This document shows positions 640-58,925 of a DNA stretch of 64,000 nucleotides, one piece after another. The DNA is from Liolophura sinensis (lineage: Eukaryota; Mollusca; Polyplacophora; Chitonida; Chitonidae). Positions within the stretch are counted from its first letter, which is position 1. The number at the start of each line of letters is the position of its first letter. The notes below the pieces were generated by a model. The model saw nothing but the letters and a program-made list of their open reading frames with translations. It had not been told where the DNA came from and ran no database searches. Made by a program: the position numbers and the translations under genes. The stretch covers positions 8,131,704-8,195,703 of the forward strand of contig NC_088304.1 in assembly GCF_032854445.1 (NCBI RefSeq). Direction: 5' to 3'.

Positions 640-2345
640 AAAACACTAGAGAGAATCTGTCAACACCTAACCTTCAGGCAGACTTAAGGGGAGACAGAGG
701 CCCTAACGTTCTAAAACACTGTAGGGAAAGTGTTAACACCTAACTGTCAAACAGATTTGAGACAAAATAAAGGCCTGCTGTTCTAAAATACTGTAGAGAA
801 GGTGTTTACACCTAACCTTCAGTCAGGCTTGAGCCAAAACAGTTAGGCGGCTGTTCTAAAACACTACAGAGAAAGTGTTAATGTCTAACCTTCCGGCAGA
901 CTTGAGATGAGACAGAGGTCCTGTTGTTCTAAAACACTGTAGAAAAAGTGTTACCACCTAACCTTCCGGCACACTTGAGATGAGATTGAGGCCCTCCTGT
1001 TCTAAAACACTGTAGAAAAAGTGTTACCACCTAACCTTCTGGCACACTTGAGACGAAATAGAGGTCCTGCTGTTCTAAAACACTGTAGAACAAGTGTGAC
1101 CACCTAACCTTCGGGCAGACTTGAGACGAGATAGAGGCCCTGTTGTTCTAAAACACTGTAGAAAAAGTGTTACCACCTAGCCTTCGGGCAGACTTGAGAC
1201 GAGATAGAGGTCCTCCTGTTCTAAATCACTGTAGAAAAAGTGTTAACACCTACCCTTCCGGCACACTTGAGACGAGACAGAGGCCCTGCTGTTCTAAAAA
1301 ACTGTAGAAAAAGTTTTAACACCTAACCTTCGGGCAGACTTGAGACGAGATAGAGTGAGTGCTTGGGGTTTAACGTCGTACTCAACAACTGAGACGAGAT
1401 AGAGGCCCTGCTGTTCTAAAACACTGTAGAAAAAGTGTTAACACCTAACCTTCGGGCAGGCTTGAGACGAGATAGAGGTCCTGCTGTTCTAAAACACTGT
1501 AGAAAAAGTGTTACCACCTAACCTTCGGGCAGACTTGAGACGAGATAGAGGCCCTCCTGTTCTAAAACACTGTAGAAAAAGTGTTAACACCTAACCTTCG
1601 GGCAGACTTGAGACGAGATAGAGTGAGTGCTTGGGGTTTAACGTCGTACTCAACAACTGAGACGAGATAGAGGCCCTGCTGTTCTAAAACACTGTAGAAA
1701 AAGTGTTAACACCTAACCTTCGGGCAGGCTTGAGACGAGATAGAGGTCCTGCTGTTCTAAAACACTGTAGAAAAAGTGTTACCACCTAACCTTCGGGCAG
1801 ACTTGAGACGAGATAGAGGCCCTCCTGTTCTAAAACACTGTAGAAAAAGTGTTAACACCTAACCTTCCGGCAGACTTGAGACGAGACAGAGGCCCTCCTC
1901 TTCTAAAACACTGTAGAAAAAGTGTTAACACCTAACCTTCGGGCAGACTTGAGATGAGATAGAGGCCCTCCTGTTCTAAAAAACTGTAGAAATAGTGTTA
2001 CCACCTAACCTTCAGGCAGACTTGAGACGAGACAGAGGTCCTGCTGTTCTAAAACACAGTAGAAGAAGTGTTACCATCTAACCTTCGGGCAGACTTGAGA
2101 CGAGATAGAGGCCCTGCTGTTCTAAAACACTGTAGAAAAAGTGTTACCACCTAACCTTCGGGCAGACTTGAGACGAGATAGAGGCCCTGCTGTTTTAAAT
2201 CACTGTAGAACAAGTGTTACCACCTAACCTTCGGGCAGACTTGAGATGAGATAGAGGCCCTCCTGTTCTAAAACACTGCAGAAAAAGTGTTAACCCCTAA
2301 CCTTTGGGCAGACTTGAGACGAGATAGAGGCCCTGCTGTTCTAAT
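640..2345 (-). repeat. 76-bp tandem array made from the RMND1 exon B donor junction
   Basis: About 22 copies of a unit of roughly 76 bp run from exon B at 2302-2345 leftwards into the intron. Read on the minus strand, each unit holds the coding tail (GAACAGCAGGGCCTC...CTGCCCGAAG), the donor G|GTTAGGTG, about 30 bases of intron, and a pyrimidine-rich ctttttctacag that looks like an acceptor. The copies at 640-900 are the most diverged. Two units, at 1356 and 1624, carry the same 35-base insertion of a SINE end, so a block of 268 bp was itself duplicated. Confidence 0.9.
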
Positions 2346-2464
2346 GCTGTGCTCAAATCTTCCAGGTGATACTCCTCTGATGTGGCATAAGCTGTCACCT
2401 CATACACTTGGTCCTGACACAACAAACAGAATTCAGGACTTTTGTCAAGACACAGTTTATTCAA
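2302..2464 (-). CDS. RMND1: RMND1 exon B, start of the conserved region
   Basis: This exon encodes about 54 residues including VTAYATSEEYHLEDLSTAL and VSSLPK. It aligns well with the human RMND1 segment that reads, from memory, CTAFATADEYHLGNLS followed by VTSLPRD. This stretch precedes the DUF155 core, which must lie left of the window. The exon ends at CCCAAAG|GTTAGG in phase 1, so the next codon begins with G, which fits the Asp that follows SLPR in human. The upstream boundary is less sure: I chose the acceptor after TACCAG because it keeps phase 0 with the previous exon, but its pyrimidine tract is poor. The last 45 or so bases of this exon plus the first 31 of the intron are the unit of the tandem array at 640-2345. 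Confidence 0.8.
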
Positions 2465-3068
2465 CTGGTACACTTCTGATGAACTCCTTGGCAACCCCCA
2501 AATGAACAACAGGCATTTTCACCTAAAGTTTGGTATATAAAAATCCATTTTTTTTCAGCACATAAAGGCATTAAAATGATAATTTTGAGATCAATACTTA
2601 AATTTTGCTGATAAGAAATTAACCTAACTCTACAAAAAAATATTAAGCAGCCATGTAATGAATCAATTAGAATCAGGCAAAATGGTTAACTTGAAAAATT
2701 TTAAACTTCAGGTGAAAACAAAGTAATAGGTCTACATGATAATTGTCAACACACACACACAAAAAATGCATAAAACCAGCCTCATTATCTAGAGATTTTA
2801 AATGCCATATTACTCAGATTAATAAACTGTTTATAAATATTTTTCACACTTTAACAGTATATACAGGGGTGGTTAATTATGTATATATAATAAATATAGA
2901 TACTAATCTTTTAGCAATAATTAATCCTCATTTAACTCTACAGAATCTCTTAATGCCACTAATATACATGGTTAACACCTAGAGCTTACAGTTAAAATGT
3001 GCAACAAATAAGAGTGACTTGTGGCAGCGCTTCACTGACTTCTACAGACAAAACCTAACAACAAATAC
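2465..3068 (-). other. RMND1 intron A
   Basis: This AT-rich intron separates the two RMND1 exons. It has GTATTTG at its 5' end and TACCAG at its 3' end on the minus strand. It contains a short CA run at 2750 and no repeat or RNA structure I can identify. Confidence 0.6.
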
Positions 3069-3383
3069 CTTGTCCCTAGATCTTGACACAGCCACTTTCT
3101 TCTTAGCGGGTCTCTTTGCTATCACAGCTTGTACATTTTTCTGTATGCTGTTTGCTATGGGAGGGGCGAATAACTCTGTTGTGGAGTTGAAAAGCCTTAC
3201 ACACCCAACAGAAATCCGAGTCTGTAGAAATGGTTCCGAAGCTCTCAGTAAACCGTTTCCAGCATTTTCAGTCCGTGTATAACAAGACCCAAACCGACAT
3301 ATATTTGTATATAATGGTGGACGATATATGCAGGCTTTTAGCCATAGCCTTGCTGGCTTTATCAACGTCTGAAGCGGCTTCAT
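3069..3383 (-). CDS. RMND1: RMND1 exon with start codon and mitochondrial presequence
   Basis: This is the N-terminal coding exon (105 codons) of the homologue of RMND1, a mitochondrial inner-membrane protein needed for mitochondrial translation. The first 40 or so residues are rich in Lys, Arg, Leu and Ala with no acidic residue, as expected for a mitochondrial presequence. The second half (FNSTTELFAPP, then a KRPAKKK cluster) matches the layout of human RMND1 between its presequence and conserved region, as I recall it. The exon ends at GACAAG|GTATTTG in phase 0, and the next exon can begin in phase 0. The ATG at 3383 is the only Met before the conserved part. A strong acceptor (ttcttttccag) just upstream at 3454 suggests that the start codon lies inside a larger second or third exon with spliced 5' UTR. 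A second reading frame overlaps this exon. Identity is moderately to well supported, mainly by the next exon. Confidence 0.7.
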
Positions 3384-3453
3384 CTCTGGGTTCCTGCTTA
3401 ACCTCTGTGTTATAACAGACGATCTCCTTCACGACTGGACATTTTACTCTTAT
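3268..3453 (-). CDS. Alternative frame overlapping the RMND1 start exon, unrecognised
   Basis: A good acceptor (ttcttttccag) opens an exon whose other reading frame runs 61 codons from IRVKCPVVKEIV through VKQEPRDEAASDVDKASKAM to a TGA at 3268. It overlaps the first 116 bases of the RMND1 frame, offset by one base. The first 40 codons look protein-like: mixed charge, normal codon choice and a helix-like Lys/Glu/Ala pattern. The last 20 look less so. Phases fit the two small upstream exons at 4956-4983 and 5311-5342, giving an 81-residue product. I do not recognise it. It could be an upstream ORF in the RMND1 leader, a separate small gene, or a chance open frame. Confidence 0.35.
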   Translation of the reverse strand: MRVKCPVVKEIVCYNTEVKQEPRDEAASDVDKASKAMAKSLHISSTIIYKYMSVWVLLYTD

Positions 3454-4955
3454 CTGGAAAAGAATAATGGTTAAATAAGCTTACAAATTCATCTTTCCAA
3501 CAATGAAAATGTCTAGAATTGTACATCTAGTATTATTTGCATAGTCTAATCACAATCTACATCTAAGTCATTTATCCTTTATAAATTATACTTACATACC
3601 ACACATATACATGTATGCCATAACTCAAACAGCCAAATCTCATACGTGATAAGTGAAATAATCATTTATGCATTTAAACAGATTTAAATTAAGAAACATA
3701 TGCCACACTCAGCACTGTTTTCAAAAATATTTCACATATACATGATATACCACAGCAGTTGGTGTCACAGGTGGAGGAAACTACATCAAAGTCTAACGAA
3801 TCTTCCCCACGTGTAATGAACACATATTGATGATGGGATCAATCAATCAGCCATAGCAAGGCTATGGCTAAAAGCCTGCATCAAAAACACAACCTGATGA
3901 GTTGTGATCACATGCAGCTACAGTAACTACATCAAAAACTGCAGTGGTAAAGGACAAAAGTCTGGTAATGGCCGTAATTTTACATTAAAAATGACGCTGA
4001 AGCAGCAGACTGACGCTCAAGTTAGTGTGTTAGGTAAGGTCATGATCCATTATGAGTACAGCTAACAAGACATGTAGGCTGTACACTGTGTCTCAGTGCA
4101 AGACTCCTAAAAACTGCATGAGTGAGGGTCATAATATGCAAATAATCTTATGCATCTTGTTTTACTAAACTACAACTCTTCTGCACAGAAAAGGGGCAAA
4201 ATATCGCACAACACATTCGATTACATTTCACATTATATCTGGGCCGCTCAAATCAGAGCTACACATACTGGCGAATAGACAGGGAAAGACAGTGTTATAA
4301 TACTGTGTTATGTCTGAATTTTAAAATAGCACATCAATTGTTTTGAAACCGTATTCTACAGTGAAGTAAAAGTATGAAGTGCCTGATGCTTTTTGACTAA
4401 CAAGGAACTGTCACAAAAAAAATGTCTCCATCGTGACAGCTGCTAGTAGAGCACAAAAGCGAGATATCATGGAATTACCACTTGTATACGCCATGGTTGA
4501 GATAAAAAAAAATCCAGAAGAATAGTTGCAAAGCTGTTGGCGAATGTAATTTGACAGGTAAGTTTTGGCTCATATTTCAGTTCCCTCACAGAAATTTTAG
4601 TATGGATGTCTGCTCGGCTGCGAACTAGACCTTAACCAATATTAAAAGTTCACAGCTGATTTCCTGGCTAGGTAACATTACTGAATATTTGTTCTTGAAT
4701 GTAGTTTCTTCAACATCAGTTTATTGGTCCCTCATTTCACCGTTCAGGACAAAAATCAGATAGAGTGTAAATATAAATGCAGTGCTTGGAGGCTTCTTGG
4801 GAATCGTCTCAGATTCTCACATCAGACTTGTTCTGAATTAAATTTGGCTGATGTAACGCCAGGTATCTTAGTGGTTGGAGTTGGAATTTATCTAGTTTCC
4901 ACTATAGTTTCATGCTTGTTTGGACTTACTAGTGATGACACATGGGAACACCTAC

Positions 4956-4983
4956 CTGGAATTGATAGCTGAGACGACTGTGA
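4956..4983 (-). CDS. Candidate 28-base microexon upstream of RMND1
   Basis: The segment is flanked by ttgtctgtccgtag on the acceptor side and by CCAG|GTAGGT on the donor side. Entering in phase 2 from the exon at 5311-5342, it reads HSRLSYQFQ and leaves in phase 0, which is the phase needed by the open frame at 3453. Phase agreement at both ends is the only support. It may equally be an untranslated leader exon of RMND1. Confidence 0.3.
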
Positions 4984-5310
4984 CTACGGACAGACAAATT
5001 ATTTGGTGCCCAGCAGTGGTATACTGAAGCCAGGAAGGGAAGTACGGAGGTGTTCAAGGTAAGCTTATGTAACAAGACAGGGCTGTGATAGTATGCGTAT
5101 CACAGCCCTACAGAGCTACAGGTATCTACGCTTTTGTTAGCAGAGAAGCAGACGACGAAAAATCTGTCTGAGATTACCAGGTGAATAAACATGACCAGTG
5201 AGGTGACATCCCAGCAGTCGTACACAGAATACTTCCCCTGTTTAAGATTTGTCAAGTGTTTAGTTTTCTGCAGAGAGGGTGACAAATAATGACCAAACAA
5301 ACACACTTAC

Positions 5311-5342
5311 CCCACATCTTTCTGCTTTGTGGGGGCTGGCAT
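5311..5342 (-). CDS. Candidate first exon upstream of RMND1 (MPAPTKQKDVG)
   Basis: An ATG in a good initiation context (GCCAAGATGCC) is followed by ten more residues and a consensus donor (GTGGG|GTAAGTG). A CCAAT box on the same strand (ATCCAATCAG) lies about 40 bases upstream, as for a promoter-proximal first exon. It could start an 81-residue product through the exons at 4956 and 3453, or be part of the 5' leader of RMND1. I see no TATA box and cannot place the transcription start. Confidence 0.4.
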
Positions 5343-5399
5343 CTTGGCTAGAACGCATACGCAACAGGTTACCTTGCTGATTGGATGAAATGCATGACG

Positions 5400-6239
5400 A
5401 TCAAGGGGGATAACCTTTACGCCGTGTGGCTCAAGGGGAAATACTCATGATTGATCCGGAGAAACCCGCGATTTCTCATCAAGTGAAATCCAGTTGTAAC
5501 ATCTATTTATAAAATGCTGACGCATAGGACATATTTGTGAATTTTGCCAAGCTGGAGTGCATAAAGCTATAAAAGGCTCTTGAAAATGCAAATGGACAGA
5601 ACTAGAACGGAAATGTGACTGTGTGGACAATAAAAATAGAATTTTGACAAACCCATCATTTTTTAAGCTTAAGAAAACCTAGTTTAGCTGAGTGAATACT
5701 CATGAAAAGTGTTAAACTCATGAAAAAGGCCAGTGGAAGCATTCTCAACTTCCTGTAGTTGCCTGACAAAACCGAACAACAGCTGCTAACCAAAATACAG
5801 TAGGATTGTGGGCGAACATGTAGATTGAGGTCTTCACTAAGAGAGATATCCACAACCAGTGATCCAGGACAGGCCTGGCCCTGGGATCACGAAGAGATCT
5901 CAGACTTATGTCAAAATTTCAGTCATTAAACTTGGTATGTTCCTTTCAGTTATTTTAACTGAAATTTGTTTTAGAGTAACATACCCCGAATTTATGCTGT
6001 CAAGCAATATTTTGACGTGAGAAATAACAATTTTAAAGTGATTTGAAATTTTTTACTTGTGTGATCCAAGATCACTTCCTAATTCCGGGGCCTGGTACTC
6101 ATCATGGCAAACTTACAGTATAAAGTCAAAGTGATCACAGAATGTTGGTGGATAGTGAGGAATGGTTGGGTGGAGTGTGGTGAGTGGAGAGTGGTTACTG
6201 CTTATACTCAAGCATATGTTCTATTAATGTGATGGTTAT
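5400..6239. other. Upstream non-coding DNA
   Basis: The stretch is AT-rich and unique-looking. I see no conserved exon. Short ORFs here have no protein-like composition and no flanking splice sites I trust. Confidence 0.5.
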
Positions 6240-6392
6240 ACTGGCTTGCTCTCTGGTGGTAGGCCTACATGAAACCTGTGGATGGTTGTGGGTTTCCTCA
6301 GACACTGCCTCGGTTTCCTCCTATCATAATGCTGATCGTCATTGCAGAAGTGAAATCTTTGGTGTAAAACACCAATTAATTAAATAAATAAT
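6240..6392 (+). mobile_element. SINE-like element, family A (truncated)
   Basis: The body contains gtggatggttgtgggtttcc, tcctcctatcataatgctga, agaagtgaaat, and a tail of tgtaaaacaccaattaatta followed by AAATAAATAA. This is the 3' half of the commonest dispersed family in the window. The tRNA-like head is missing. Confidence 0.8.
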
Positions 6393-6844
6393 AAATTGAT
6401 ATGATTTTAGGCACTGGGCCAAACATGAATGAAACCATTGCTGTCTTTGCCAGCCATCTGATGAACCTCTTGATAAAATGCCAAGTAGCGATTCAAATTT
6501 CTGACCAACTGCTAACTAAATTCGAAATTGTCCAAGATTGCTCTGATTTTAGGTTGGCAAAATTATGTTCAGCCAAAGATGGCCCCAAACCTGTGTCAGA
6601 GGGCGCTCCATTCAAAAACCTGATGCAGTTGCTGTTGCATTATGTCACGGTGTTCGAGACAAAAATTGCCTGTCAAGTGTATCTCCACAACCTTGAGTTT
6701 GCAGTCACACATTTTCCGCATCTTTCTTTCTGAGGATTATTGCAAGCACATCAATCGGTTATTTTCCATTCAGCATCAAGATTCTTTGGTAATTCTCACT
6801 GTAGGCTTCTGTCAGCCTTGACATATGTGACATGGGCATGTTCA

Positions 6845-16429: not shown

Positions 16430-17600
16430 TAATACCACTATCAAGATAACAATTTACAACAATCAAGATAACAATTCACTACCACCAGGAGAGAATTCAC
16501 CACCATGGTGACAATTTACCACAATCAAGATAACAATTAATGCCAAAATCAAGTTAATTTACCATGATCAAGGTAACAATTTACCATCATCCCGGTAATA
16601 ATTCTCCATCAAGGTAGCAATTTACCACCATCATGTGGACAATTTACCACCATCATGGGGACAATTTACCACCATCATGAAGACAATTTACCACCATCAA
16701 GGGGACAATTTACCACCATCATGGGGGCAATTTACCACCATCAAGGTGACAATTTACCACCATCATGAGGCAATTTACCACCATCATGGAGACAATTTAC
16801 CACTATTAAGGTGACAGTTTACCACGATCATAGGGCCAATTTACCACAATCATGGGGACAATTTACCAACATCATGGAGGCAATTTACCACCATTAAGGT
16901 GACAGTTTACCAACTTCATGGGACAATTTACCACCATCAAGGTGACAAATTACCACCATCATGGAGGCAATTTACCACCATCAAGGTGACAATTTACCAC
17001 CATCATGGAGGCAATTTACCACATCATGGAGACAATTTACCAACATTAAGGTGACAGTTTACCACGATGATGGGGCCAATTTACCACACTCATGGGGGAC
17101 AATTTACCACCATCATGGGGCCAATTTACCACAATCATGGGGACAATTTACCAACATCATGGAGGCAATTTACCACCATCATGGGGACAATTTACCACCA
17201 TCATGGGGACATTTACCACCATCATGGAGGACAATTTAACACCATTAAGGTGACAGTTTACCACGATCATAGGGCCAATTTACCACAATCCTGGGGACAA
17301 TTTACCAACATCATGGAGGCATTTACCACCATCAAGGTGACAAATTACCACCATCATGGGGACAATTTACCACCATCAAGAGGACAATTTACCACCATTA
17401 AGGTGACAGTTTACCAACATCATGGAGGCAATTTACCACCATCAAGGTGACAATTTACCACCATTAAGGTAACAGTTTACCACACTCATAGGGACAATTT
17501 ACCACCACCAAGGTGACACATTAACACCATCATAGGAACAATTTACCACCATTAAGGTGACAACTTGCCACCATTAAGGTAACAACATTCCTGATTTGAT
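16430..17600. repeat. 21-bp tandem array
   Basis: More than 50 copies of a unit of about 21 bp built on caatttaccaccatcatggg, with subtypes ending in catggaggc, caaggtgac or cattaaggtgacagt. The subtypes recur in the same order (for example near 16800 and 17040), which indicates duplication of multi-unit blocks. ORFs here are repeat read-through. Confidence 0.9.
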
Positions 17601-21184: not shown

Positions 21185-21416
21185 TCACCTCGGCAGGTCA
21201 GCCACCTTGACTTTCCGCTTCACAATGTTCCCGTAGGTGTCTTCAGCCAAACATGTAATGCTGACAGCATTTTCCGGCAGGTTTTTCATGCGGCCAAGTT
21301 TGAGGGTGAACTCGATGGGTGGATGGACAAGGAACTCCCAGTGGTGGAACACCATACCCTCGGGGTCTGTGCGGACTTCCACCAGACGTAGCCCCGCACG
21401 ACTCTTCACCTTACCC
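21185..21416 (-). CDS. Metallopeptidase last exon
   Basis: The C-terminal exon begins in phase 2 after tgctcctag. It reads GKVKSRAGLRLVEVRTDPEG, then FHHWEFLVHPPIEFTLKLG and ends KVKVADLPR followed by TGA at 21185. The compact beta-rich pattern (RLVEVR, HHWEF) is characteristic of the end of this family as I recall it. With this exon the seven exons sum to 1904 bases, one short of a whole number of codons, which is the base missing in exon 2. Confidence 0.8.
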
Positions 21417-22671: not shown

Positions 22672-22725
22672 CCAGAGATGTCTGGAAGTTTTCTGGGGTC
22701 TGACGGTGAAGCAGCGTTAAACCAC
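22672..22725 (-). CDS. Metallopeptidase exon 5b (54 bases)
   Basis: A small exon of 18 codons reading WFNAASPSDPRKLPDIS. It is entered after ctgttacag in phase 2 and leaves at CTCTGG|GTAAGC in phase 2. I looked for it because family members usually have a Trp-Phe-Asn segment after the HHK of the previous exon; both phases and the peptide fit. Its acceptor region is repeated upstream at 22726-22915. Skipping it would keep the frame, so it could be a cassette exon. Confidence 0.75.
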
Positions 22726-22915
22726 CTGTAACAGTTCAATAGCAGAACAAACACCATTTAACCACAGTAACTGATCATCAACAGAAGAAGTAGCATTAAA
22801 CCAGAAGCATCAGCATTAAACTACCTGTAACATATCAATAATAGAAGCAACAGCTTTAAACCACCTGTAACAGATCAACAACAGAAGAAGCAGCATTAAA
22901 CCATCTGCAACATCT
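22708..22915 (-). repeat. About 48-bp array made from the exon 5b acceptor junction
   Basis: On the minus strand, about four degenerate copies precede exon 5b, each with gatctgttacag|GTGGTTTAA and GCTGCTTC or close variants. The unit therefore includes the branch and acceptor region plus the first 20 or so exon bases. Only the last copy continues into a complete exon with a donor. Confidence 0.75.
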
Positions 22916-23374: not shown

Positions 23375-23570
23375 TTGTGATGTTTGAGGAGAACAGCTGA
23401 GGATCTGTACCAATGGGCACCATCATCTGCAAATTTAATGTCCGGTAACGTGAGGTCCGAGTCGCCTCCCTCTGGCGAGTTTGGCAGTGTAGAGGGGTGT
23501 GAAGATGTCGGGGAGAGCGACGAGGTAGATGCATTTGAGCTCACGCTAGAACAGCTGCTGGTTCGGCGCC
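23375..23570 (-). CDS. Metallopeptidase exon 5
   Basis: It is entered in phase 1 after tgttgtgatcag, so the split codon becomes CGG. It reads through a Ser/Thr/Pro-rich linker to LPDIKFADDGAHWYRSSAVL and LKHHK. The HWYRSSAVLL part resembles the conserved segment that follows the zinc site in this family, as I remember it. The donor is CACAA|GTAAGC, phase 2. The linker is probably disordered. Confidence 0.75.
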
Positions 23571-24526: not shown

Positions 24527-26540
24527 TCATCTCTGGCACAAAATGAGCTAAGCTAACTGACTCACGATGTGAGAGGATTCTTTGAGTGATCTGCTCAGAC
24601 ATCATGGAAAACTCAGCCAGAGCCTCAGCGCTGGAGTCGTCGTCCTGACTGATAATCTCTGGTACAAAATGAGCTAGGCTAACTGACTCACGATGTGAGA
24701 GGATTCTCTGAGTGATCTGCTCAGACATCATGGAAAACTCAGCCAGAGCCTCAGCGCTGGAGTCGTCGTCCTGACTGATAATCTCTGGTACAAAATGAGC
24801 TAAGCTAACTGACTCACGATGTGAGAGGATTCTCTGAGTGATCTGCTCAGACATCATGGAAAACTCAGCCAGAGCCTCAGCGCTGGAGTCGTCGCCCTGA
24901 CTGATAATCTCTGATACAAAATGAGCTAAGCTGACTCACGATGTGAGAGGATTCTCTGAGTGATCTGCTCAGACTTCACGGAAAACTCAGCCAGAGCCTC
25001 AGCGCTGGAGTCGTCGTCCTGACTGATAATCTCTGGTACAAAATGAGCTAAGCTAACTGACTCACGATGTGAGAGGATTCTCTGAGTGATCTGCTCAGAC
25101 ATCATGGAAAACTCAGCCAGAGCCTCAGCGCTGGAGTCGTCGTCCTGACTGATAATCTCTGGTACAAAATGAGCTAAGCTAACTGACTCACGATGTGAGA
25201 GGATTCTCTGAGTGATCTGCTCAGACATCATGGAAAACTCAGCCAGAGCCTCAGCGCTGGAGTCGTCGCTCTGACTGATAATCTCTGATACAAAATGAGC
25301 TATGCTGACTCACGATGTGAGAGGATTCTCTGAGTGATCTGCTCAGACATCATGGAAAACTCAGCCAGAGCCTCAGCGCTGGAGTCGTCGTCCTGACTGA
25401 TAATCTCTGGTACAAAATGAGCTAAGCTAACTGACTCACGATGTGAGAGGATTCTCTGAGTGATCTGCTCAGACATCATGGAAAACTCAGCCAGAGCCTC
25501 AGTGCTGGAGTCGTCGTCCTGACTGATTATCTCTGGTACAAAATGAGCTAAGCTAACTGACTCACGATGTGAGAGGATTCTCTGAGTGATCAGCTCAGAC
25601 ATCATGGAAAACTCAGCCAGAGCCTCAGTGCTGGAGTCGTCGTCCTGACTGATAATCTCTGGTACAAAATGAGCTAAGCTAACTGACTCACGATGCGAGA
25701 GGATTCTCTGAGTGATCTGCTCAGACATCACGGAAAACTCAGCCAGAGCCTCAGTGCTGGAGTCGTCACCCTGACAGATAATCTCTGGTACAAAATGAGC
25801 TAAGCTAACTGACTCACGATGTGAGAGGATTCTCTGAGTGATCTGCTCAGACATCATGGAAAACTCAGCCAGAGCCTCAGCGCTGGAGTCGTCGTCCTGA
25901 CTGATAATCTCTGGTACAAAATGAGCTAAGCTAACTGACTCACGATGTGAGGGGATTCTCTGAGTGATCTGCTCAGACATCATGGAAAACTCAGCCAGAG
26001 CCTCGGTGCTGGAGTCGTCGTCCTGACTGATAATCTCTGGTACAAAATGAGCTAAGCTAACTGACTCACGATGTGAGAGGATTCTCTGAGTGATCTGCTC
26101 AGACATCATGGAAAACTCAGCCAGAGCCTCAGCGCTGGAGTCGTCGTCCTGACTGATAATCTCTGATACAAAATGAGCTAGGCTAACTGACTCACGATGT
26201 GAGAGGATTCTCTGAGTGATCTGCTCAGACATCACGGAAACTCAGCCAGAGCGTCAGTGCTGGAGTCGTCGTCCTGACTGATAATCTCTGATACAAAATG
26301 AGCTAAGCTAACTGACTCACGATGTGAGAGGATTCTTTGAGTGATCTGCTCAGACATCATGGAAAACTCAGCCAGAGCCTCAGCGCTGGAGTCGTCGCCC
26401 TGACTGATAATCTCTGGTACAAAATGAGCTAGGCTAACTGACTCACGATGTGAGAGGATTCTCTGAGTGATCTGCTCAGACATCATGGAAAACTCAGCCA
26501 GAGCCTCAGTGCTGGAGTCGTCGTCCTGACTGATAATCGT
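24527..26540 (-). repeat. 126-bp tandem array made from the exon 4 donor junction
   Basis: Sixteen copies of a 126-bp unit. On the minus strand each has ATGTCTGAGCAGATCACTC, the donor CACATC|GTGAGTCAG, about 45 bases beyond it (ending ttatcagtcag) and the coding part GACGACGACTCCAGCGC. The unit is 42 codons without a stop, so read-through gives a 42-residue repeat (MMSEQITQRILSHRES...). Three copies have deletions: one base at about 26235 and four bases at about 25303 and about 24927, together nine bases. Fifteen of the sixteen donors match the exon 4 donor exactly; the copy near 25691 reads CTCGCATC. Confidence 0.95.
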
Positions 26541-26666
26541 GCGTCGTGTCTCTGTACCATCGTAGTTCTTCACTGAGATCGTCATGGAGGTAGGGCGGAT
26601 GATGGGGCGAAACCCGGTCTCCACATTAACCACTAACGGGGGAGGGTTCACATGGCTTCCTCTACT
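26447..26666 (-). CDS. Metallopeptidase exon 4, 3' end tandemly repeated
   Basis: It begins SRGSHVNPPPLVV after the acceptor ctccctcag in phase 0 and runs through RPTSMTISVKNYDGTETRRT to MMSEQITQRILSH. I end it at CACATC|GTGAGTCAG, phase 1, because exon 5 begins in phase 1 and no other junction in the array restores the frame more simply. The frame does not stop at the donor: read through, it enters the 126-bp array and gives a 42-residue repeat until a 1-base deletion causes a stop at 26232. Fifteen further copies of the same donor lie downstream, so longer in-frame versions of this exon are possible. Confidence 0.75.
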
Positions 26667-26957: not shown

Positions 26958-27245
26958 GAGTGAGTGACTGCCTGGGGTTTAACGTCGTACTTAACAATTT
27001 TAAGACGCAGGAATGCTAAGAGTGCATGTTATGTGCCTCCTTGTTGCAGGATGGATTTCCACCGCTGCTTCACTGAGACGACTTAACGAAAGCAAGTAAG
27101 TCGCCCTGCCCGAGTCATTACACAGATACAGGTTAACAAGTCGTTGTACTGTCCCCTTCATGCTGAATGCCAAGCGAGGAAGCTACAACTTCCTCTGTTA
27201 AGGTCTTAGGTGTGACTCGACCCAGGATTGACCCTGGATCTACCG
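26958..27245 (-). mobile_element. SINE-like element, family B
   Basis: It contains gcctggggtttaacgtcgta, tgttgcaggatggatttcca and cgccctgcccgagtcattac, and ends in a reverse-complement tRNA-like head (B-box-like GGGTCGAGTCACACC on the minus strand near 27210). It lies in intron 3, about 150 bases from the exon 3 donor. Confidence 0.85.
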
Positions 27246-27395: not shown

Positions 27396-27747
27396 CCTGT
27401 AGAATTGCTCCTTTGCAGATTTCCTCACCTTTTTAACAGGACTGTCATAGCAGACATCCCTATACCGACGGGCATGACTTTCCAAGGTCAAATTCCCCAC
27501 ACCAAGGTCAAACTCTCCTTCAGACAGATTGCGAGGTAAACTGTCACGGCCGTAGGAGGCAGTGCTCTTGATCGACTCTCTCGACTCAGCACTGCTGACC
27601 TTTGACCTCTGTACAGTGAAGACCTTGTGAAGGTCATCAAATCCCCGTGCCATGATTCCTGTGGGTGTATGGGCCAGGTCAAATGTGTGGCCCAGTTCAT
27701 GAAGGGAAGCACCTAGTCCAGTTGCATAATTCGCCCAGTGATATTCT
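27396..27747 (-). CDS. Metallopeptidase exon 3 with zinc-binding motif
   Basis: This exon holds the catalytic core: WANYATGLGASLHELGHTFDLAH, then TPTGIMARGFDD. HELGHTFDLAH fits HExxHxxxxxH, with three His zinc ligands and the general-base Glu at about residues 300-310. GIMARG is placed like a metzincin Met-turn. All key residues are intact. After FTVQRSK the sequence is Ser- and charge-rich and less conserved. The acceptor is tttttgcag at 27748 (phase 2) and the donor is CTACAGG|GTAATT (phase 0). It is separated from exon 2 by about 28 kb of repeat-filled intron, but joining them gives the continuous peptide AYREYHWANY. Confidence 0.88.
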
Positions 27748-48261: not shown

Positions 48262-50124
48262 CCTAAAGCTTTATCATTGAGTTAGATGGTAACTGGACTA
48301 GGTTTATGCTCTTTGACCATTGAGTTAGATGGTAACTGGACTAGGTTTATGCTCTTTGACCACTGAGTTAGATGGTAACTGGACTAGGTTAATGCTATTT
48401 TACCACTGAGTTAGATGGTACCTGGACTAGGTTTATGCTCTTTGACCATTGAGTTAGATGGTAACAGGACTAGGTTTATGCTATTTGACCACTGAGTTAG
48501 ATGGTAACTGGACTAGGTTTATGCTATCTGACCATTGAGTTAGATGGTAAGTGGACTAGGTTTATGCTCTTTGACCATTGAGTTAGATGGTAAGTGGACT
48601 AGGTTTATGCTATTTGACCATTGAGTTAGATGGTAAGTGGACTAGGTTTATGCTCTTTGACCATTGAGTTAGATGGTAACTGGACTAGGTTTATGCTATT
48701 TGACCACTGAGTTAGATGGTAACTGGACTAGGTTTATGCTATTTGACCATTGAGTTAGATGGTAACAGGACTAGGTTTATGCTCTTTGACCATTGAGTTA
48801 GATGGTAACTGGACTAGGTTTATGCTCTTTGACCACTGAGTTAGATGGTAACTGGACTAGGTTAATGCTATTTTACCACTGAGTTAGATGGTACCTGGAC
48901 TAGGTTTATGCTCTTTGACCATTGAGTTAGATGGTAACTGGACTAGGTTTATGCTATTTGACCACTGAGTTAGATGGTAACTGGACTAGGTTTATGCTAT
49001 CTGACCATTGAGTTAGATGGTAAGTGGACTAGGTTTATGCTCTTTGACCATTGAGTTAGATGGTAAGTGGACTAGGTTTATGCTATTTGACCATTGAGTT
49101 AGATGGTAAGTGGACTAGGTTTATGCTCTTTGACCATTGAGTTAGATGGTAACTGGACTAGGTTTATGCTATTTGACCACTGAGTTAGATGGTAACTGGA
49201 CTAGGTTTATGCTATTTGACCATTGAGTTAGATGGTAAGTGGACTAGGTTTATGCTCTTTGACCATTGAGTTAGATGGTAACTGGACTAGGTTTATGCTA
49301 TTTGACCATTGAGTTAGATGGTAACTGGACTAGGTTTATGCTCTTTGACCATTGAGTTAGATGGTAACTGGGCTAGGTTTATGCTCTTTGACCACTGAGT
49401 TAGATGGTAACTGGACTAGGTTTATGCTCTTTGACCACTGAGTTAGATGGTAACTGGACTAGGTTTATGCTCTTTGACCACTGAGTTAGATGGTAACTGG
49501 ACTAGGTTTATGCTTTTTGACCACTGAGTTAGATGGTAAATGGACTAGGTTTATGCTATTTGACCACTGAGTTAGATGGTAACTGGACTAGGTTTATGCT
49601 ATTTGACCATTGAGTTAGATGGTAACTGGACTAGGTTTATGCTATTTGACCACTGAGTTAGATGGTAACAGGACTAGGTTTATGCTATTTGACCATTGAG
49701 TTAGATGGTAACTGGGCTAGGTTTATGCTCTTTGACCACTGAGTTAGATGGTACCTGGACTAGGTTTATGCTATTTGACCATTGAGTTAGATGGTAACTG
49801 GACTAGGTTTATGCTATTTGACCACTGAGTTAGATGGTAACTGGACTAGGTTTATGCTATTTGACCATTGAGTTAGATGGTAACTGGGCTAGGTTTATGC
49901 TATTTGACCACTGAGTTAGATGGTAACAGGACTAGGTTTATGCTATTTGACCACTGAGTTATATAGTAACTGGACTAGGTTTATGCTCTTTGACCATTGA
50001 GTTAGATGGTAACAGGACTAGGTTTATGCTATTTGACCACTGAGTTAGATGGTAACTGGACTAGGTTTATGCTATTTGACCACTGAGTTAGATGGTAACT
50101 GGACTAGGTTTATGCTATTTGACG
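48262..50124. repeat. 43-bp tandem array with higher-order blocks
   Basis: About 43 copies of ttgagttagatggtaactgg plus actaggtttatgctctttgacca. Variants (ctctttg, ctatttg, ctatctg; taactgg, taagtgg, taacagg, tacctgg) recur in order: an 11-unit run starting near 48270 is repeated 473 bp later, including the unusual aatgctattttaccactg at 48391 and 48864. Confidence 0.95.
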
Positions 50125-50404
50125 TGCTGCTTTCTGCTGCACTGTTCATGATTTCCCAGAGCGGTTGTGCGATTAGATATAGCTATGCTATCTTCTATTT
50201 GACAGCATAGGATACCACCTACAAAAAATGAATAACCTAGGACCCGGCTGAAAATGCTTTGCAGTTCTAGTGTAAAACAATTTTGCATGAATGTAACAGT
50301 TTTATGGTAGCCAAACCTGTTTTGCAACTATTCAGTCAAACATGTGTATGTTGATGTTGGTTTCTAGCACTCTTCCTTTAAAATCTTTAGAAAAATGCAT
50401 TTGC

Positions 50405-51514: not shown

Positions 51515-54500
51515 CAATCAGTGTTTGTATAGCTGTGCCATCTGCAGTGATTGTATAGCTGTGCCGTCTGCAGTGTTTGTATAGCTGTGTCGTCTTTAGT
51601 GTTTGTATAGCTGTGCAGTCTTTAGTGTTTGTATAGCTGTGCAGTCTTTAGTGTTTGTATAGCTGTGCAGTCTTTAGTGTTTGTATAGCTGTGCAGTCTT
51701 TAGTGTTTGTATAGCTGTGCAGTCTGCAGTGTTTGTATAGCTGTGTCATCTTTAGTGTTTGTATAGCTGTGCAGTCTGCAGTGTTTGTATAGCTGTGCAG
51801 TCTGCAGTGTTTGTATAGCTGTGTCGTCTTTAGTGTTTGTATAGCTGTGCAGTCTTTAGTGTTTGTATAGCTGTGCAGTCTTTAGTGTTTGTATAGCTGT
51901 GCAGCCTGCAGTGTTTGTATAGCTGTGCAGTCTGCAGTGTTAGTATAGCTGTGCAGTCTTCAGTGTTAGTATAGCTGTGCAGTCTGCAGTCTTTGTATAG
52001 CTGTGTCGTCTTTAGTGTTTGTATAGCTGTGCAGTCTTTAGTGTTTGTATAGCTGTGCAGTCTTTAGTGTTTGTATAGCTGTGCAGTCTTTAGTGTTTGT
52101 ATAGCTGTGCAGCCTGCAGTGTTTGTATAGCTGTGCAGTCTGCAGTGTTAGTATAGCTGTGCAGTCTTCAGTGTTAGTATAGCTGTGCAGTCTGCAGTGA
52201 TTGTATAGCTGTGTTGCGTTTAGTGTTGGTATAGCTGTGCAGTCTGCAGTGTTTGTATAGCTGTGCAGTCTGCAGTGTTTGTATAGCTGTGCAGCCTGCA
52301 GTGTTTGTATAGCTGTGCAGTCTGCAGTGATTGTACAGCTGTGCAGTCTGCAGTGATTGTATAGCTGTGCAGTGTGCAGTGATTGTATAGCTGTGTCGTG
52401 TTTAGTGTTTGTATAGCTGTGCATTCTGCAGTGTTTGTATACCTGTGTCGTCTGCAGTGTTTGTATAGCTGTGCAGGCTGCAGTGTTTGTATAGCTGTGC
52501 AGTCTGCAGTGATTGTATAGCTGTGCAGTCTGCAGTGATTGTATAGCTGTGCAGTCTGCAGTGATTGTATAGCTGAGCAGTCTGCAGTGATTGTATAGCT
52601 GTGCAGTCTGCAGTGTTTGTATAGCTGTACAGTCTGCAGTGTTTGTATAGCTGTGCAGTCTTTAGTGTTTGTATAGTTGTGCAGTCTGCAATGATTGTAT
52701 AGCTGTGTAGTCTTAAGTGTTTGTATAGGTGTGCAGTCTTTAGTGTTTGTATAACTGTGCAATCTTTAGTGTTTGTATAGCTGTCCAGTCTTTAGTGTTT
52801 GTACAGTGCAGTGTGCAGTGTTTGTATAGCTGTGCAGCCTGCAGTGATTGTATAGGTGTGCAGTCTGCAGTGATTGTATAGCTGTGCAGTCTTTAGTGTT
52901 TGTATAGCTGTGCAGTCTTTAGTGTTTGTATAGCTGTGCAGTCTGCAGTGTTGGTATAGCTGTGCAGTCTGCAGTGTTTGTATAGCTGTGTCGTCTTTAG
53001 TGTTTGTATAGCTGTGTCGTATGCAGTGATTGTATAGGTGTGCAGTCTGCAGTGTTTGTATAGCTGTGCAGTCTGCAGTGTTGGTACAGCTGTGCAGTCT
53101 GCAGTGATTGTATATTTGTGTCGTATTGAGTGTTTGTATAGCTGTGCAGTCTGCAGTGTTGGTATAGCTGTGCCGTCTTTAGTGTTTATATAGCTGTGCA
53201 GCCTGCAGTGATTGTATAGCTGTGCAGTCTGCAGTGTTTGTATAGCTGTGCAGCCTGCAGTGTTTGTATAGCTGTGCAGTCTGCAGTGTTTGTATAGCTG
53301 TCCAGACTGCAGTGTTTGTATAGCTGTGTCGTTTGCAGTGTTTGTATAGCTGTGCAGTCTGCAGTGTTGTATAGCTGTGCAGTCTGCAGTGTTAGTATAG
53401 CTGTGCAGTCTGCAGTGATTGTATAGCTGTGTTGTGTTTAGTGTTTGTATAGCTGTGCAGTGTTTGTATAGCTGTGTTGTCTGCAGTGTTTGTATAGCTG
53501 TGCAGTCTGCAGTGATTGTATAGCTGTGCAGTCTGCAGTGATTGTATAACTGTGCAGTCTGCAGTGATTGTTTAGCTGTGCAGCCTGCAGTGTTTGTATA
53601 GCTGTGCAGGCTGCAGTGTTTGTATAGCTGTGCGGCCTGCAGTGTTTGTATAGCTGTGCAGTCTGCAGTGATTGTATAGCTGTGTCGTGTTTAGTGTTTG
53701 TATAGCTGTGCAGTCTGCAGTGTTTGTATAGCTGTGCCGTCTTTAGTGTTTGTATAGCTCTGCCGTCTGCAGTGTTTGTATAGCTGTGCAGTCTGCAATG
53801 TTTGTATAGCTCTGTCGTATGCAGTGATTGTATAGCTCTGCAGTCTGCAGTGTTTGTATAACTGTGCAGTCTGCAGTGATTGTATAGCTGTGTCACGTTT
53901 AGTGTTTGTATAGCTGTGCAGCCGTAGTGTTAGTATAGCTGTGCAGTCTGCAGTTTTTGTATAGCTGTGCAGTCTGTAGTGTTAGTATAGCTGTGGAGTC
54001 TACAGTGTTTGTATAGCTGTGCAGTCTGCAGTGTTTGTATAGCTGTGCAGTCTGCAGTGTTTGTATAGCTGTGCCGTCTGCAGTGTTTGTATAGCTGTGC
54101 AGCCTGCAGTGTTTGTATAGCTGTGCAGCCTGCAGTGTTTGTATAGCTGTGCAGGCTGCAGTGTTAGTATAGCTGTGCAGTCTGCAGTGTTTGTATACCT
54201 GTGCAGTCTTTAGTGTTTGTATAGCTGTGCAGTCTTTAGTGTTTGTATAGCTGTGCAGTCTTTAGTGTTTGTATAGCTGTGCAGTCTGCAGTGTTTGTAT
54301 AGCTGTGCAGTCTGCAGTGTTTGTATAGCTGTGCAGGCTGCAGTCTTTGTATAGCTGTGCAGGCTGCAGTGTTGTATAGCTGTGCAGTCTGCAGTGTCAG
54401 TATAGCTGTGCAGTCTTCAGTGTTAGTATAGCTGTGCAGTCTGCAGTGTTTGTATAGCTGTGCAGTCTGCAGTGTTTGTATAGCTGTGCATTCTGCAGTG

Positions 54501-55280
54501 TTTGTATAACTGTGCAGTCTGCAATGTTTGTATAACTGTGTCGTCTTTAGTGTTTGTACAGCTGTGCAGTCTGCAGTGTTTGTATGGCTGTGCAGTCTGC
54601 AGTGCTGGTATAGCTGTGCAGTCTGCAGTGTTTGTATAGGTGTGCAGTCTGCAGTGTTTGTATAGCTGTGCAGTCTTTAGTGTTTGTATAGCTGTGCAGT
54701 CTGCAGTGATTGTATAGGTGTGCAGTCTGCAGTGTTTGTATAGCTGTACAGTCTGCAGTGTTTGTATAGCTGTGCAGTCTGCAGTGTTTGTATAGTTGTG
54801 CAGTCTGCAATGTTTGTATAGCTGTGCAGTCTTTAGTGTTTGTATAACTGTGCAATCTTTAGTGTTTGTATAGCTGTCCAGTCTTTAGTGTTTGTACAGT
54901 GCAGTGTGCAGTGTTTGTATAGCTGTGCAGCCTGCAGTGTTTGTATAGCTGTGCAGTCTGCAGTGATTGTATAGGTGTGCAGTCTGCAGTGTTTGTATAG
55001 CTGTGCAGTATGCAGTGTTTATATAGCTGTGCCATCTGCAGTGTTTGTATAGCTGTGCCGTCTTTAGTGTTTGTATAGCTGTGCAGTCTTTAATGTTTGC
55101 ATAGCTGTACAGTTTTCAGTGCTTGTGTAGCCGTGCAGTTTGCAGTGCTTGTATAGCTGTGCAGTCTTTAGTGTTTGTATAGCTGTGCAGTCTGCAGTGC
55201 TTGTATAGCTGTGCAGTCTGCAGTGCTTGTATAGCTGTGCAGTCTGCAGTGCTTGTATAGCTGACAAGTGTTCAGTATTT
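51515..55280. repeat. 26-bp tandem array of about 3.8 kb
   Basis: The largest array in the window, with roughly 145 copies of gtttgtatagctgtgcagtc plus tgcagt. Common variants are tttagt for tgcagt, attg for tttg, and tgtcgtc for tgcagtc. On the minus strand many stretches are open because the unit lacks stops in its three-unit cycle (LYKHCRLHSYTNTADC-like peptides). Confidence 0.95.
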
Positions 55281-55369
55281 GTATAGCGTTGAAGACCATA
55301 ATACTAATGGCTCTCACAACAGTGCATTAATTTTTAGTTCAATTAATCCATCAATACTTTACAAAAAAA

Positions 55370-55703
55370 GCGCTTTGGGTTTAACGTCGTACTTAACAAT
55401 TTTTCAGTCATATGACCACGAAGGAGTCCTTACAGTGCATGTAATCTGCCTCTTTGTTGCAGGACGGATTTCCACCGCTCTTTTATTTAGTGCTGCTTCA
55501 CTTAGGGAACTTACTGAAGACTGGTAAGTCGCCCGCTCAAGCCATTATACTGATACGGGTCAACCAGTCGTTGCACTATCCCCTTCATGCTGAACGCCAA
55601 GCAAGGAAGCTACAAATTCCTCTTTTAGGGTCTTAGGTGTAACCCAACCAAGGATCTACCGGCCCCAAAGTGGATACTATACCAGTTGAGCTATCTGGGC
55701 CGG
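55370..55703 (-). mobile_element. SINE-like element, family B, full length
   Basis: It runs from gctttgggtttaacgtcgta to agctatctgggccgg. On the minus strand it begins CCGGCCCAGATAGCTCAACT, whose TAGCTCAACTGG fits a tRNA A box, and GGTTGGGTTACACC about 40 bases later is near a B box. So this family is tRNA-derived and is read on the minus strand. Confidence 0.9.
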
Positions 55704-55851
55704 AATTAACAAAAAGAAAACAGATAGTAAGCGCTGGACAAACTAGTGTGGTCAGAGTGATGATACAGAGGGGTAACTTAGGGATGGGAATAGAGTAGGG
55801 TTAGGCTGAGTCCTACCCTGCTCATACCATGGAAATCAACAAAAACACAGC

Positions 55852-56022
55852 CATAAGTGGGAAGGTATGCCAGCAACCTATGGATGGTTGCGTCTTTCTC
55901 CCAGGCTCATCTTGGTTTCCTCCCACCATAATGCTGGCTACTGTCATATATTAAAATGAAATATTCCTGAGTACGGCCTAAAAACACCAATCAAATAAAT
56001 AAATAAATAAATAAATAAAAAG
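55852..56022 (+). mobile_element. SINE-like element, family A (truncated)
   Basis: It starts ccataagtgggaaggtatgc, continues with cctcccaccataatgctggc and ends in an (AAAT)n tail. It lies in intron 2, only about 25 bases from the exon 2 donor. Confidence 0.85.
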
Positions 56023-56045
56023 ATACAAAAGAATTATCTCCTTAC

Positions 56046-56177
56046 CTGTAGGCACTGTCATCCATCAGAACAGAACGGTCGATTTTTCTCTCGTCAGTAA
56101 ATCGCATCACCACTTCCTCAAGACTGGCTGCCCAAGTATGCAAATTACCCGTCCCAATAAGGCTAAACCACCGCCAC
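56046..56177 (-). CDS. Metallopeptidase exon 2, apparent 1-base deletion
   Basis: Exon 1 leaves in phase 1 and this exon opens GGTGGCGGTGGT, giving GGGLAL directly after HTALG. From the middle onward the good frame is one base off (GTGNLHTWAASLEEVV...DDSAYR), and it leaves in phase 2 at CTACAG|GTAAGG, matching exon 3. So the exon is 132 bases where 133 are needed. The break is at 56155-56161, at the short A run in cccaataagg. Without the extra base, translation stops in this exon. Possible causes are a consensus error at a homopolymer or a real disabling allele; the other exons show no damage. The peptide leads into the zinc-site exon. Confidence 0.75.
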
Positions 56178-56284
56178 CTGACAGAAATGGAGAGTGTTTA
56201 CCAGCGTCGTGTAAACGTCGAATTGTGCTTCTTTTCCACTCAATGATCTCAGGTAATAGTGCATACATAACGTAACTTCTCCAG

Positions 56285-56455
56285 CCATAAGTGGGAAGGT
56301 CTGTTTATAGCAACCTGCAGATGGTCGTTAGTTTCCCCCTGGGTTCCGCCCGGTTTCCTCCCATCATAATGTTGGTCGTTGCGTTGTACAAGTGAAATAT
56401 TCTTGAGTACAGCGCAAAACACCAATCAAATAAACAAATAAATAAATAAATAAAT
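56285..56455 (+). mobile_element. SINE-like element, family A (truncated)
   Basis: It starts ccataagtgggaaggtctgt, continues with cctcccatcataatgttggt, gtacaagtgaaatattcttg and an AAAT tail. Its 5' break point is the same as that of the copy at 55852 on the other side of exon 2. Confidence 0.85.
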
Positions 56456-56684
56456 ATACATGTACAGTGTAACAGAAGTGAAATGTATAATATTCCCACA
56501 CAAACTATATTTACAGATATTACACTGACCAAATGATAAAAAGCAGTCTGATGAAGTGACACAAGCAAATCTGCTCACCGCACATGTATATTTGTTGGAT
56601 TGGTTTTCAACTCCATACTCAGGAATACCTACATGTAACTCCTTAGACTAGTATACTGTATGGTCACAGTCAGGTTAATGGGTG

Positions 56685-57505
56685 AAGATCACCAGACAGA
56701 CTCTGGAGTAAACCCCTTTCGCCAGGTATATGAGTGAAAAACACCAGGCAGAGCCTGGAGTAAACCCCTGTTGCCAGGTATATGGGTGAAGAACACCAGA
56801 CAGAGCCTGGAGTAAACCCCTGTCGCCAGGTGTATGGGTGAAGAAGACCAGGCAGAGCCTGGAGTACACCCCTGTTGCCAGGTATATGGGTGAAGAATAC
56901 CAAACAGAGCCTGGAGTAAACCCCTGTTGCCAGGTATATGGGTGAAGAACACCAGACAGAGCCTGGAGTACACCCCTGTTGCCAGGTATATGGGTGAAGA
57001 ATACCAAACAGAGCCTGGAGTACACCCCTGTTGCCAGATATATGGGTGAAGAACACCAGACAGAGCCTGGAGTAAACCCCTGTCGCCAGGTATATGTGTG
57101 AAGAACACCAGACAGAGCCTGGAGTAAACCCCTGCCGCCAGGTATATGGGTGAAGAACACCAGACAGAGCCTGGAGTAAACCCCTGCCGCCAGGTATATG
57201 GGTGAAGAACACCAGACAGAGCCTGGAGTAAACCCCTGCCGCCAGGTATATGGGTGAAGAACACCAGACAGAGCCTGGAGTAAACCCCTGTCGCCAGGTA
57301 TATGGATGAAAAACACCAGACAGAGCCTGGAGTACACCCCTGTTGCCAGGTATATGGGTGAAGAACACCAGACAGAGCCTGGAGTACACCCCTGTCGCCA
57401 GGTATATGGGTGAAGAACACCAGACAGAGCCTGGAGTAAACCCCTGTCGCCAGGTGTATGGGTGAATAACACCAAACAGAGCCTGGAGTAAACCCCTGTT
57501 CCTGC
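56685..57505. repeat. 52-bp tandem array, open in all three minus frames
   Basis: About 15.5 copies of a unit containing acaccagacagagcctggag and taaacccctgtcgccaggta. Because 52 is not a multiple of three, each minus frame passes through the same three phases, and all are free of stops: ORFs of 239, 289 and 286 codons overlap here. They have no flanking splice sites that join them to a gene. The array is in intron 1 of the metallopeptidase gene. Confidence 0.93.
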
Positions 57506-57769
57506 CTTAAAGCTGCAACCAGCCAGCCACACTGGAGTGAGCATTTCATCTGATTAGTTAAGGGCTAAACTGCCACATGAAAACAGGTGATTCCACCACA
57601 TGAGCCACAGAGGACACACAAACTGACTTGTACTCTGAATGTACGTGTCTATGAACAGTTCAGCAGTCTTTATGGTAACCAGGAACATTTTGGTCCATGC
57701 TAATGTAACCAGAGCAGAACTGTTCCTCTCTTCCACACTCTTACCTGTAAAGGAGTGTGGTCTCTTGGT

Positions 57770-58925
57770 TTTGGTACTTATCCAAAGTCGTGTGACCCTT
57801 AGTGTACTTCAGAATGTTGCTGTGAGTTCTATTACACTTACCCAATGCTGTGTGACCTTAAGTGTGCTTAAGAATGTCACTATGGGTTTTGTTACACTTT
57901 ACCTAATGCCCTGTGACCCTTGGTGTACTTAAGAATGTCACTATGGGTTTTGCTACACTTTACCTAATGCCACGTGACCCTTGGTGTACTTAAGAATGTC
58001 ACTATGGGTTTTGCTGCACTTTACCTAATGCCCTGTGGCCCTTGGTGTACTTAAGAACACTAGTATGGGTTTTGCTACACTTTATCTACTGCCACATGAC
58101 CCTTGGTGTACTTAAGAATGTCACTACGGGTTTTGCTACACTTTACCTAATGCCCTGTGGCCCTTGGTGTAGTTAAGAATGCTAGTATGGGTTTTGCTAC
58201 ACTTTACCTAATGCCATGTGACCCTTGGTATACTTAAGAATGTCACTATGGGTTTTGCTCCACTTTACCTAATGCCCTGTGGCCCTTGGTGTACTGAAGA
58301 ATGTCACTACGGGTTTTGCTACACTTTACCTAATGCCCTGTGGCCCTTGGTGTAGTTAAGAATGCTAGTATGGGTTTTGCTACACTTTACCTAATGCCAT
58401 GTGACCCTTGGTATACTTAAGAATGCTAGTATGGGTTTTGCTACACTTTACCTAATGCCCTGTGGCCCTTGGTGTACTGAAGAATGTCACTACTGGTTTT
58501 ATTACACGTTACCTAATGCCCTGTGGCATTGGTGTACTTAAGAATGTCACCATGGGTTTTGCTGCACTTTACCTAATGCCCTGTGGCCCTTGGTGTACTT
58601 AAGAATGTCACTATGGGTTTCGCTACACTTTACCTAATGCCCAGTGGCCCTTGGTGTACTTAAGAATGTCACTATTGGTTTTGCTACACTTTACCTAATG
58701 CCCTGTGACCCTTGGTGTACTGAAGAATGTTACTATTAGTTTTGTTGAACTTACCTAATGCTGTGTGGCCCTTGGTGTACTGCAGAATGTCACGATTGGT
58801 TTTTTTGAACTTACCTAATGCCATGTGGCCCTTGGTGTACTGAAGAATGTCGCTATTGGTTTTACTGAACTTACCTAATGCTGTGTGGCCCTTGGTGTAC
58901 TGAAGAATTTCGCTGTGGGTTTTAG
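57770..58925 (-). repeat. 60/61-bp tandem array made from the exon 1 donor junction
   Basis: About 19 copies. On the minus strand each holds TACACCAAGGGCCACA, GCATTAG|GTAA and then tgtagcaaaacccatagtga or a related intron part. The four copies nearest exon 1 keep GGTAAGTTC and are 60 bp, so they stay in frame (TKGHTALGKFNKTNS-like repeats). The distal ones are 61 bp with GGTAAAGTG. Most copies keep AG|GTAA; the one at 58080 has lost it. Confidence 0.92.

Follow-up and report, generated by a model that had tools for sequence, protein, structure and literature searches.

Why do four tandem arrays in one stretch of a chiton genome each lie across the edge of an exon? The stretch in question, 64,000 nucleotides from Liolophura sinensis (C10:8131704-8195703, the whole of which is termed the window here), belongs to an assembly of 609,464,459 bases in 632 contigs. 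A sequence-only reading had placed in it four arrays whose units straddle exon-intron boundaries, and a unit-by-unit split of the arrays agreed with this placement:

639..2344, minus strand: array 1, about 24 copies of 73-bp units at the donor CCCGAAG|GTTAGG
22708..22913, minus strand: array 2, units of ~40 bp at the acceptor of exon F, TTACAG|GTGGTTTAA
24529..26538, minus strand: array 3, 16 copies of a 126-bp unit at the donor of exon D, CTCACATC|GTGAGT
57791..58923, minus strand: array 4, about 18 copies at the donor of exon A, units ...ILQYTKGHTAL-G|GTAAGT

Such arrays are real and are frequent in the chiton genome. Their kind is known, from the 'mirages' of lancelets, and it is the phylum, the measured frequency and a possible donor bias that are new. 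We think it probable that the chiton arrays are mirages too, that is, minisatellites captured at a splice junction and tolerated since the exon-proximal site is used.

Four junction arrays in two genes

Three of the arrays sit at donors and one at an acceptor, and all but one of these junctions read AG|GT, as had been seen in the sequence. The first reading also gave the right periods for arrays 3 and 4 (126 and 60/61 bp); those of arrays 1 and 2 are 73 and ~40 bp, not 76 and ~48. Each unit of array 1 holds 39 coding bases (...LEQQGLYLVSSLPK, then GTTAGG) and 34 intronic bases, and each unit of array 3 holds 91 coding and 35 intronic bases. The three exon-nearest copies of array 4 are 60 bp long, in frame and with a GTAAGT donor; most of the farther ones are 61 bp long with GTAAAG. 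Retention of the splice site in nearly all copies was borne out at the donors (GT in 22/24 copies of array 1, 16/16 of array 3 and, at TTAG|GTAA, 17/18 of array 4), but the acceptor AG of array 2 was retained in only 4/6 copies.

That two genes are involved also stood. Arrays 2, 3 and 4 belong to one gene, encoding a metalloprotease of family PF12044 (Metallopep), and array 1 belongs to another, probably RMND1; a division of arrays 2-4 between two unrelated genes is ruled out by the PF12044 matches and the joined reading frame. The metalloprotease gene runs on the minus strand from 59592 to 21185, with 7 exons and 12 junctions, of which 3 are amplified; its exons are listed here, with the exon of the second gene in the last row:

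58875..59592, minus strand: exon A, starts at ATG, PF12044 positions 2-256, ends CATTAG|GTAAGT, donor amplified
56046..56177, minus strand: exon B, PF12044 positions 266-305, preceded by TCAG and followed by GTAAGG
27429..27747, minus strand: exon C, motif HELGHTFDLAH, PF12044 positions 302-384, preceded by GCAG and followed by GTGAGG
26447..26666, minus strand: exon D, joins in frame to exons C and E, donor amplified
23375..23570, minus strand: exon E, part of the joined open frame C-G
22672..22725, minus strand: exon F (WFNAASPSDPRKLPDIS), part of the joined open frame C-G, acceptor amplified
21185..21416, minus strand: exon G, which closes the coding sequence with TGA, part of the joined open frame C-G
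2302..2413, minus strand: exon of the second gene, probably RMND1 (DQVYEV...SSLPK), donor amplified, an open frame that both tandem gene copies retain

Array 4 has its donor between exons A and B, whose matches to PF12044 cover contiguous stretches of the family. For arrays 2 and 3, the support of the junctions comes from their phases and from exons C-G, which, joined at the exon-proximal splice sites, read through as one frame of 339 codons with no stop but the last. A profile search of Pfam and NCBIfam with exons D-G gave no family match, so the case for these exons is made by frame, splice consensus and phase. Exon B is 1 base shorter than the frame of its neighbours predicts, and the PF12044 match there crosses one TAA; a sequencing error, a frameshift or decay of the gene may account for this.

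The exon of the second gene reads DQVYEVTAYATSEEYHLEDLSTALEQQGLYLVSSLPK and found no family match in Pfam or NCBIfam. Downstream of it on the same strand lie exons matching DUF155/PF02582, and from this family and a likeness to the human protein we take the gene to be probably RMND1. A PDB search with the RMND1 exons gave no useful match (best E 0.015, designed repeat proteins). Two RMND1 junctions fall inside the window, of which one is amplified.

The sequence-only reading had counted four amplified junctions among about nine. The four remain, and the junctions counted within the window now number 14 (12 in the metalloprotease gene and 2 in the probable RMND1). Arrays are abundant there (n = 38, covering 33% of the window; ~10% in a first sample of exon neighbourhoods elsewhere), yet with founder units of the 38 arrays placed at random only 0.3-0.4 straddling arrays were expected for the 14 junctions against the four observed (P(>=4) 3e-4 to 9e-4). 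The view that these arrays grew out of splice junctions, above random placement, thus held within the window. The window had been singled out for having junction arrays, so a sample of other genes is the fairer test.

Junction arrays among conserved genes

With profiles of myosin heads, chaperonins and kinesins, at least 263 exon matches were obtained, which fell into 183 clusters. From these, 139 clusters were drawn at random before any sequence was seen and 120 were fetched, amounting to 173 exons in 180,522 bases (sample 1). Sample 2 comprised 19 stretches picked by exon density, not at random, with 53 new exons (one of them a pseudo-match in stretch L133) taken from the leftovers of the first search and 26 further matches. 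Pooled, the samples held 225 exons with 450 ends, 241,044 bases and 81 arrays, and covered the myosin, kinesin, chaperonin, aldehyde dehydrogenase and Sec1 families; exon ends here are the ends of profile matches, and some are domain ends rather than junctions. Arrays were classed as clear when the unit repeats at least 12 coding bases together with the splice site and intron, and as weak when it repeats fewer than 12 coding bases.

The same structure was found outside the window. By rule, 11/61 arrays in sample 1 straddled an exon end, compared with 6.2 expected, and none lay inside an exon, compared with 7.1 expected. By eye, ten of the sample 1 arrays were real junction arrays (nine donors, one acceptor), and sample 2 added three clear donors and one clear acceptor, as well as one weak donor and one weak acceptor. 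Examples include a chaperonin donor, LVPGGGATEMALAQ|GTGTGT (stretch L097), a myosin donor, FLDR|GTAGGT (L040), and a kinesin donor, LMFGQR|GTAAGA (L133). The weak cases were two donors (L096, L134) and one acceptor (L136). Three further candidates were rejected before counting: L144 and L140 are intronic, and L099 holds an intronic 28-bp array into which the profile match runs and a 41-bp array with ~5 coding bases. A second kinesin match in L133 was likewise rejected as an exon, being a copy inside the array.

The pooled set contained 13 clear arrays, at 11/225 donor ends and 2/225 acceptor ends; with weak cases there were 13 donors and 3 acceptors. Random founder placement predicted 3.8-4.2 clear arrays per side, or 4.2-4.7 with weak cases. 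The excess at donors was significant (Poisson, P = 0.002-0.004; with weak cases, P = 0.0005-0.001), whereas the deficit at acceptors was not (Poisson, P = 0.21 and 0.31). For both sides together the excess was modest, at 13 against 7.6-8.4 (Poisson, P = 0.05-0.09), or 16 against 8.5-9.4 with weak cases (P = 0.01-0.03). On the sampled exons the excess over random placement was weaker than the first reading had suggested: junction arrays occur genome-wide in the chiton, their total excess is modest and their excess at donors is clearer but was noticed post hoc. Donors outnumbered acceptors 11 to 2 (P = 0.022), or 14 to 4 once the window and RMND1 arrays were included (P = 0.031).

The surroundings of the exons differed between the two sides. 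Upstream of acceptors, array cover was 3.2% in the first 50 bp and ~16% beyond 300 bp, and this climb away from the exon fits selection against arrays near acceptors. Downstream of donors it was 7.8% in the first 50 bp and ~11-12% farther out. The G+C content of arrays (44%) exceeded that of the rest of the flanking sequence (37%), and a founder preference for exon-like sequence could for that reason add to the excess near exons.

A rival reading is mere chance overlap with exon ends, or false repeats in the assembly; the total excess is modest, and the matches in L099, L140 and L144 did prove not to be junction arrays. However, all 13 clear cases repeat coding bases, splice site and intron as one unit, and the HiFi reads behind the assembly, with a published mean length of 8,347 b, are longer than the arrays studied. 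We give chance or artefact very little credence.

A special role for AGGT, by which a duplicated AGGT segment makes or moves introns (the Rogers model), had also been suggested for these arrays. AG|GT stands at 14/16 of the amplified donors read by hand and at 41% of automatically called donors, and initial tests on this basis (P = 0.0008 and 0.0002) were discarded, as they set hand-read amplified donors against an automatically called background. With one automatic rule applied to all exons, the figures became 5/7 amplified against 37/95 others (P = 0.12), and none of four like-for-like rules gave a significant excess (P = 0.12, 1.0, 0.28 and 0.76). The AGGT hint is therefore not supported, since AG|GT is the splice consensus and its excess is not significant once one rule serves both sets. 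Every copy of array 1 does contain a possible 39-nt mini-exon (AG|AACAG...GAAG|GTTAG), phase 1 at both ends and in frame if used, which would suit such a model, as would the AG|GT seen in all but one of the window's four arrayed junctions. However, neighbouring mini-exons are separated by 34 nt, which is short for a spliceosomal intron. No created or shifted intron was seen: each array lies at one end of an intron that its gene model calls for in any case, and no gene model needs an additional intron between duplicated copies, with exons C-G joining through their exon-proximal sites. That AGGT drove the creation or movement of introns here is highly improbable.

Behaviour of the copies

The exons examined were open to the first donor in 16/16 cases. 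Continuing to the next matching donor broke the frame or added a stop in 12/16, and left an open frame in 4/16 (arrays 3, 4, L097 and L134). Variation among copies was similar at codon positions 1, 2 and 3 (5.7, 4.2 and 5.1%) and in the intronic part (6.1%; 12 arrays). Given the frame and stop result and this intron-like variation of the codons, translation of the copies is not the rule. Three units were tested for specificity to their loci: those of arrays 1, 3 and 4 gave 75 matches, all at their own loci or at the duplicate of array 1, in a search that skips very common words. A dispersed repeat was ruled out on this ground, and a search of papers for the letters of dispersed repeats returned none.

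These observations also bear on whether the arrays might be coding, with variable choice among in-frame donors yielding variable protein repeats (20 aa in array 4, 42 aa in array 3). In the four cases named above, arrays 3 and 4 among them, extension to the second donor preserves an open frame, and array 3 (126 = 3 x 42) reads open through two further copies. Yet most donors break the frame or add a stop, the copies carry no codon-position signal, array 3 goes out of frame at its third copy through a one-base deletion and array 4 passes to 61-bp units after three copies. We consider a coding function very unlikely.

Under the favoured reading, a short stretch lying by chance across a splice junction would be duplicated in tandem and would then lengthen and shorten like the other minisatellites of this array-rich genome, presumably by slippage or unequal exchange. 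Additional copies would accumulate on the intron side, the copy adjacent to the exon would provide the working splice site, and the remaining copies would be decoys lost with the intron, leaving the protein unchanged. Arrays close to acceptors would most likely interfere with the branch point and pyrimidine tract, and selection would remove them, which may explain why fewer are found there. In favour of this reading are the spread of junction arrays over many unrelated conserved genes and a total near that of random founder placement, with no sample 1 array inside an exon.

The history of the RMND1 arrays is in keeping with such instability. A fifth array, with a 74-bp period, lies at an RMND1 acceptor just left of the window (TTACAG|GTGATGAATGAGAAG). 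The region of RMND1 and its neighbouring arrays occurs twice in tandem, parts of it ~93-97% identical (window 1 to ~8500; stretches L002-L005, L145), and both the donor and the acceptor array are present in both gene copies, at 1366 vs 1706 b and 574 vs ~786 b, respectively. These are differences between paralogs, not alleles. Both arrays are therefore older than the duplication and have changed since, and lengths that differ between tandem copies are as expected of unstable arrays. The apparent duplication may, however, be a false duplication of two haplotypes. Two units of array 1 (1390-1683, minus strand) carry a 49-bp insertion resembling a dispersed element elsewhere in the window (similar letters near 26962). 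The duplicate of array 1 carries this insertion too, which is therefore older than the gene duplication.

Several points weigh against the mirage reading. Use of the exon-proximal site is likely from the frame argument. Curation of the junction arrays was by eye and unblinded, the donor bias came to notice post hoc after sample 1 (9:1), and sample 2 alone gave a ratio that was not significant (3:1 clear, 4:2 with weak cases). Moreover, pure decoys should not retain their splice dinucleotides preferentially. The splice dinucleotide was present in 168/175 copies across 14 arrays; in the 11 arrays where a comparison was made, it was retained in 154/159 copies, as against 664/793 for the same dinucleotides elsewhere in the units, and its mean mid-rank of 0.70 was matched by random dinucleotides in 0.4% of draws. 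We treat this retention as a lead only, because the copies are related and two of the arrays have a paralog in the set.

If the lead were sound, decoy sites could be active in RNA processing, for instance by docking U1 and so promoting the splicing of long introns or holding back early polyadenylation, or through stepwise removal of the intron. The better retention of splice dinucleotides and the more frequent amplification of donors than acceptors would both suit this. On the other hand, copy numbers and periods appear arbitrary, most donors have no array, and related copies in two tandem gene pairs mean that the retention test overstates its sample; such a role seems very unlikely. A bolder form of the idea holds that ~1 in 20 donors of conserved genes heads a ladder of spare donors kept working for the processing of long, array-rich introns, the donor-acceptor asymmetry being a trace of that use. 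It would build on the retention of decoy dinucleotides (97% vs 84% for the same letters elsewhere) while codon positions drift, and we hold it to be decidedly unlikely.

Known systems and minor features of the window

The chiton arrays have the structure that defines a mirage. In lancelets, mirages have been described in Adh3, with somatic instability as a further trait there, and in the globins BflGb6 and BflGb9 (PMC3087553), to which troponin C and PGBD5 are added (PMC3902484); regular splicing by RT-PCR and length polymorphism between haplotypes are reported (PMC3087553). The likeness is close: minisatellite-like tandem units of varying length lie across 5' or 3' exon-intron boundaries (PMC3087553, PMC3902484), and AG/GT is kept in many though not all copies, as in the chiton. 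Unlike the lancelet cases, the chiton arrays come from a mollusc, were counted in a sample of conserved genes, and favour donors over acceptors.

Three other systems share some of these features. Going by its coordinates, the 31-bp variable number tandem repeat of human CBS, c.1444_1467+7(16_21), repeats 24 bases of exon and 7 of intron 16-21 times (PMC2630376); it is likewise a donor-spanning minisatellite, but a single polymorphic human locus as opposed to many chiton loci. Human segmental duplications contain variable internal tandem repeats, with minisatellites at exon-intron boundaries, some of which are said to form novel introns (PMC2812944). Those repeats alter transcripts of recent paralogs, whereas the chiton arrays have no known altered transcript. 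Where an AGGT segment is duplicated in tandem and an intron gained (Rogers 1989; the potato RdRp case, PMC4974935), splice signals are copied as in the chiton arrays, but no gained intron was seen in the chiton. In a limited search of open-access papers we did not find mollusc junction arrays, their frequency or a donor-acceptor contrast; in the main text of two chiton genome papers, one does not use 'tandem' and the other neither 'minisatellite' nor 'tandem repeat'.

Should the rate seen in the samples hold, several percent of the donors in this mollusc genome would head a row of near-identical donor copies. Junction arrays would then be a large natural experiment on the choice among equal splice sites, in which shifted or gained introns might also be sought. 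They also carry a warning for annotation. In one case (C11:27414708), homology search took an exon-end copy inside an array for another exon: at L133 3972-4094 the kinesin profile matched such a copy inside the junction array. Arrays of this kind can thus mislead homology-based gene prediction.

Very long minisatellites that are purely intronic or intergenic were also observed, three in the window and one in stretch L002:

51519-55287: 26 bp x 146
48275-50123: 43 bp x 43
16433-17585: 22 bp x 53
stretch L002, 1411-4933: 55 bp x 64

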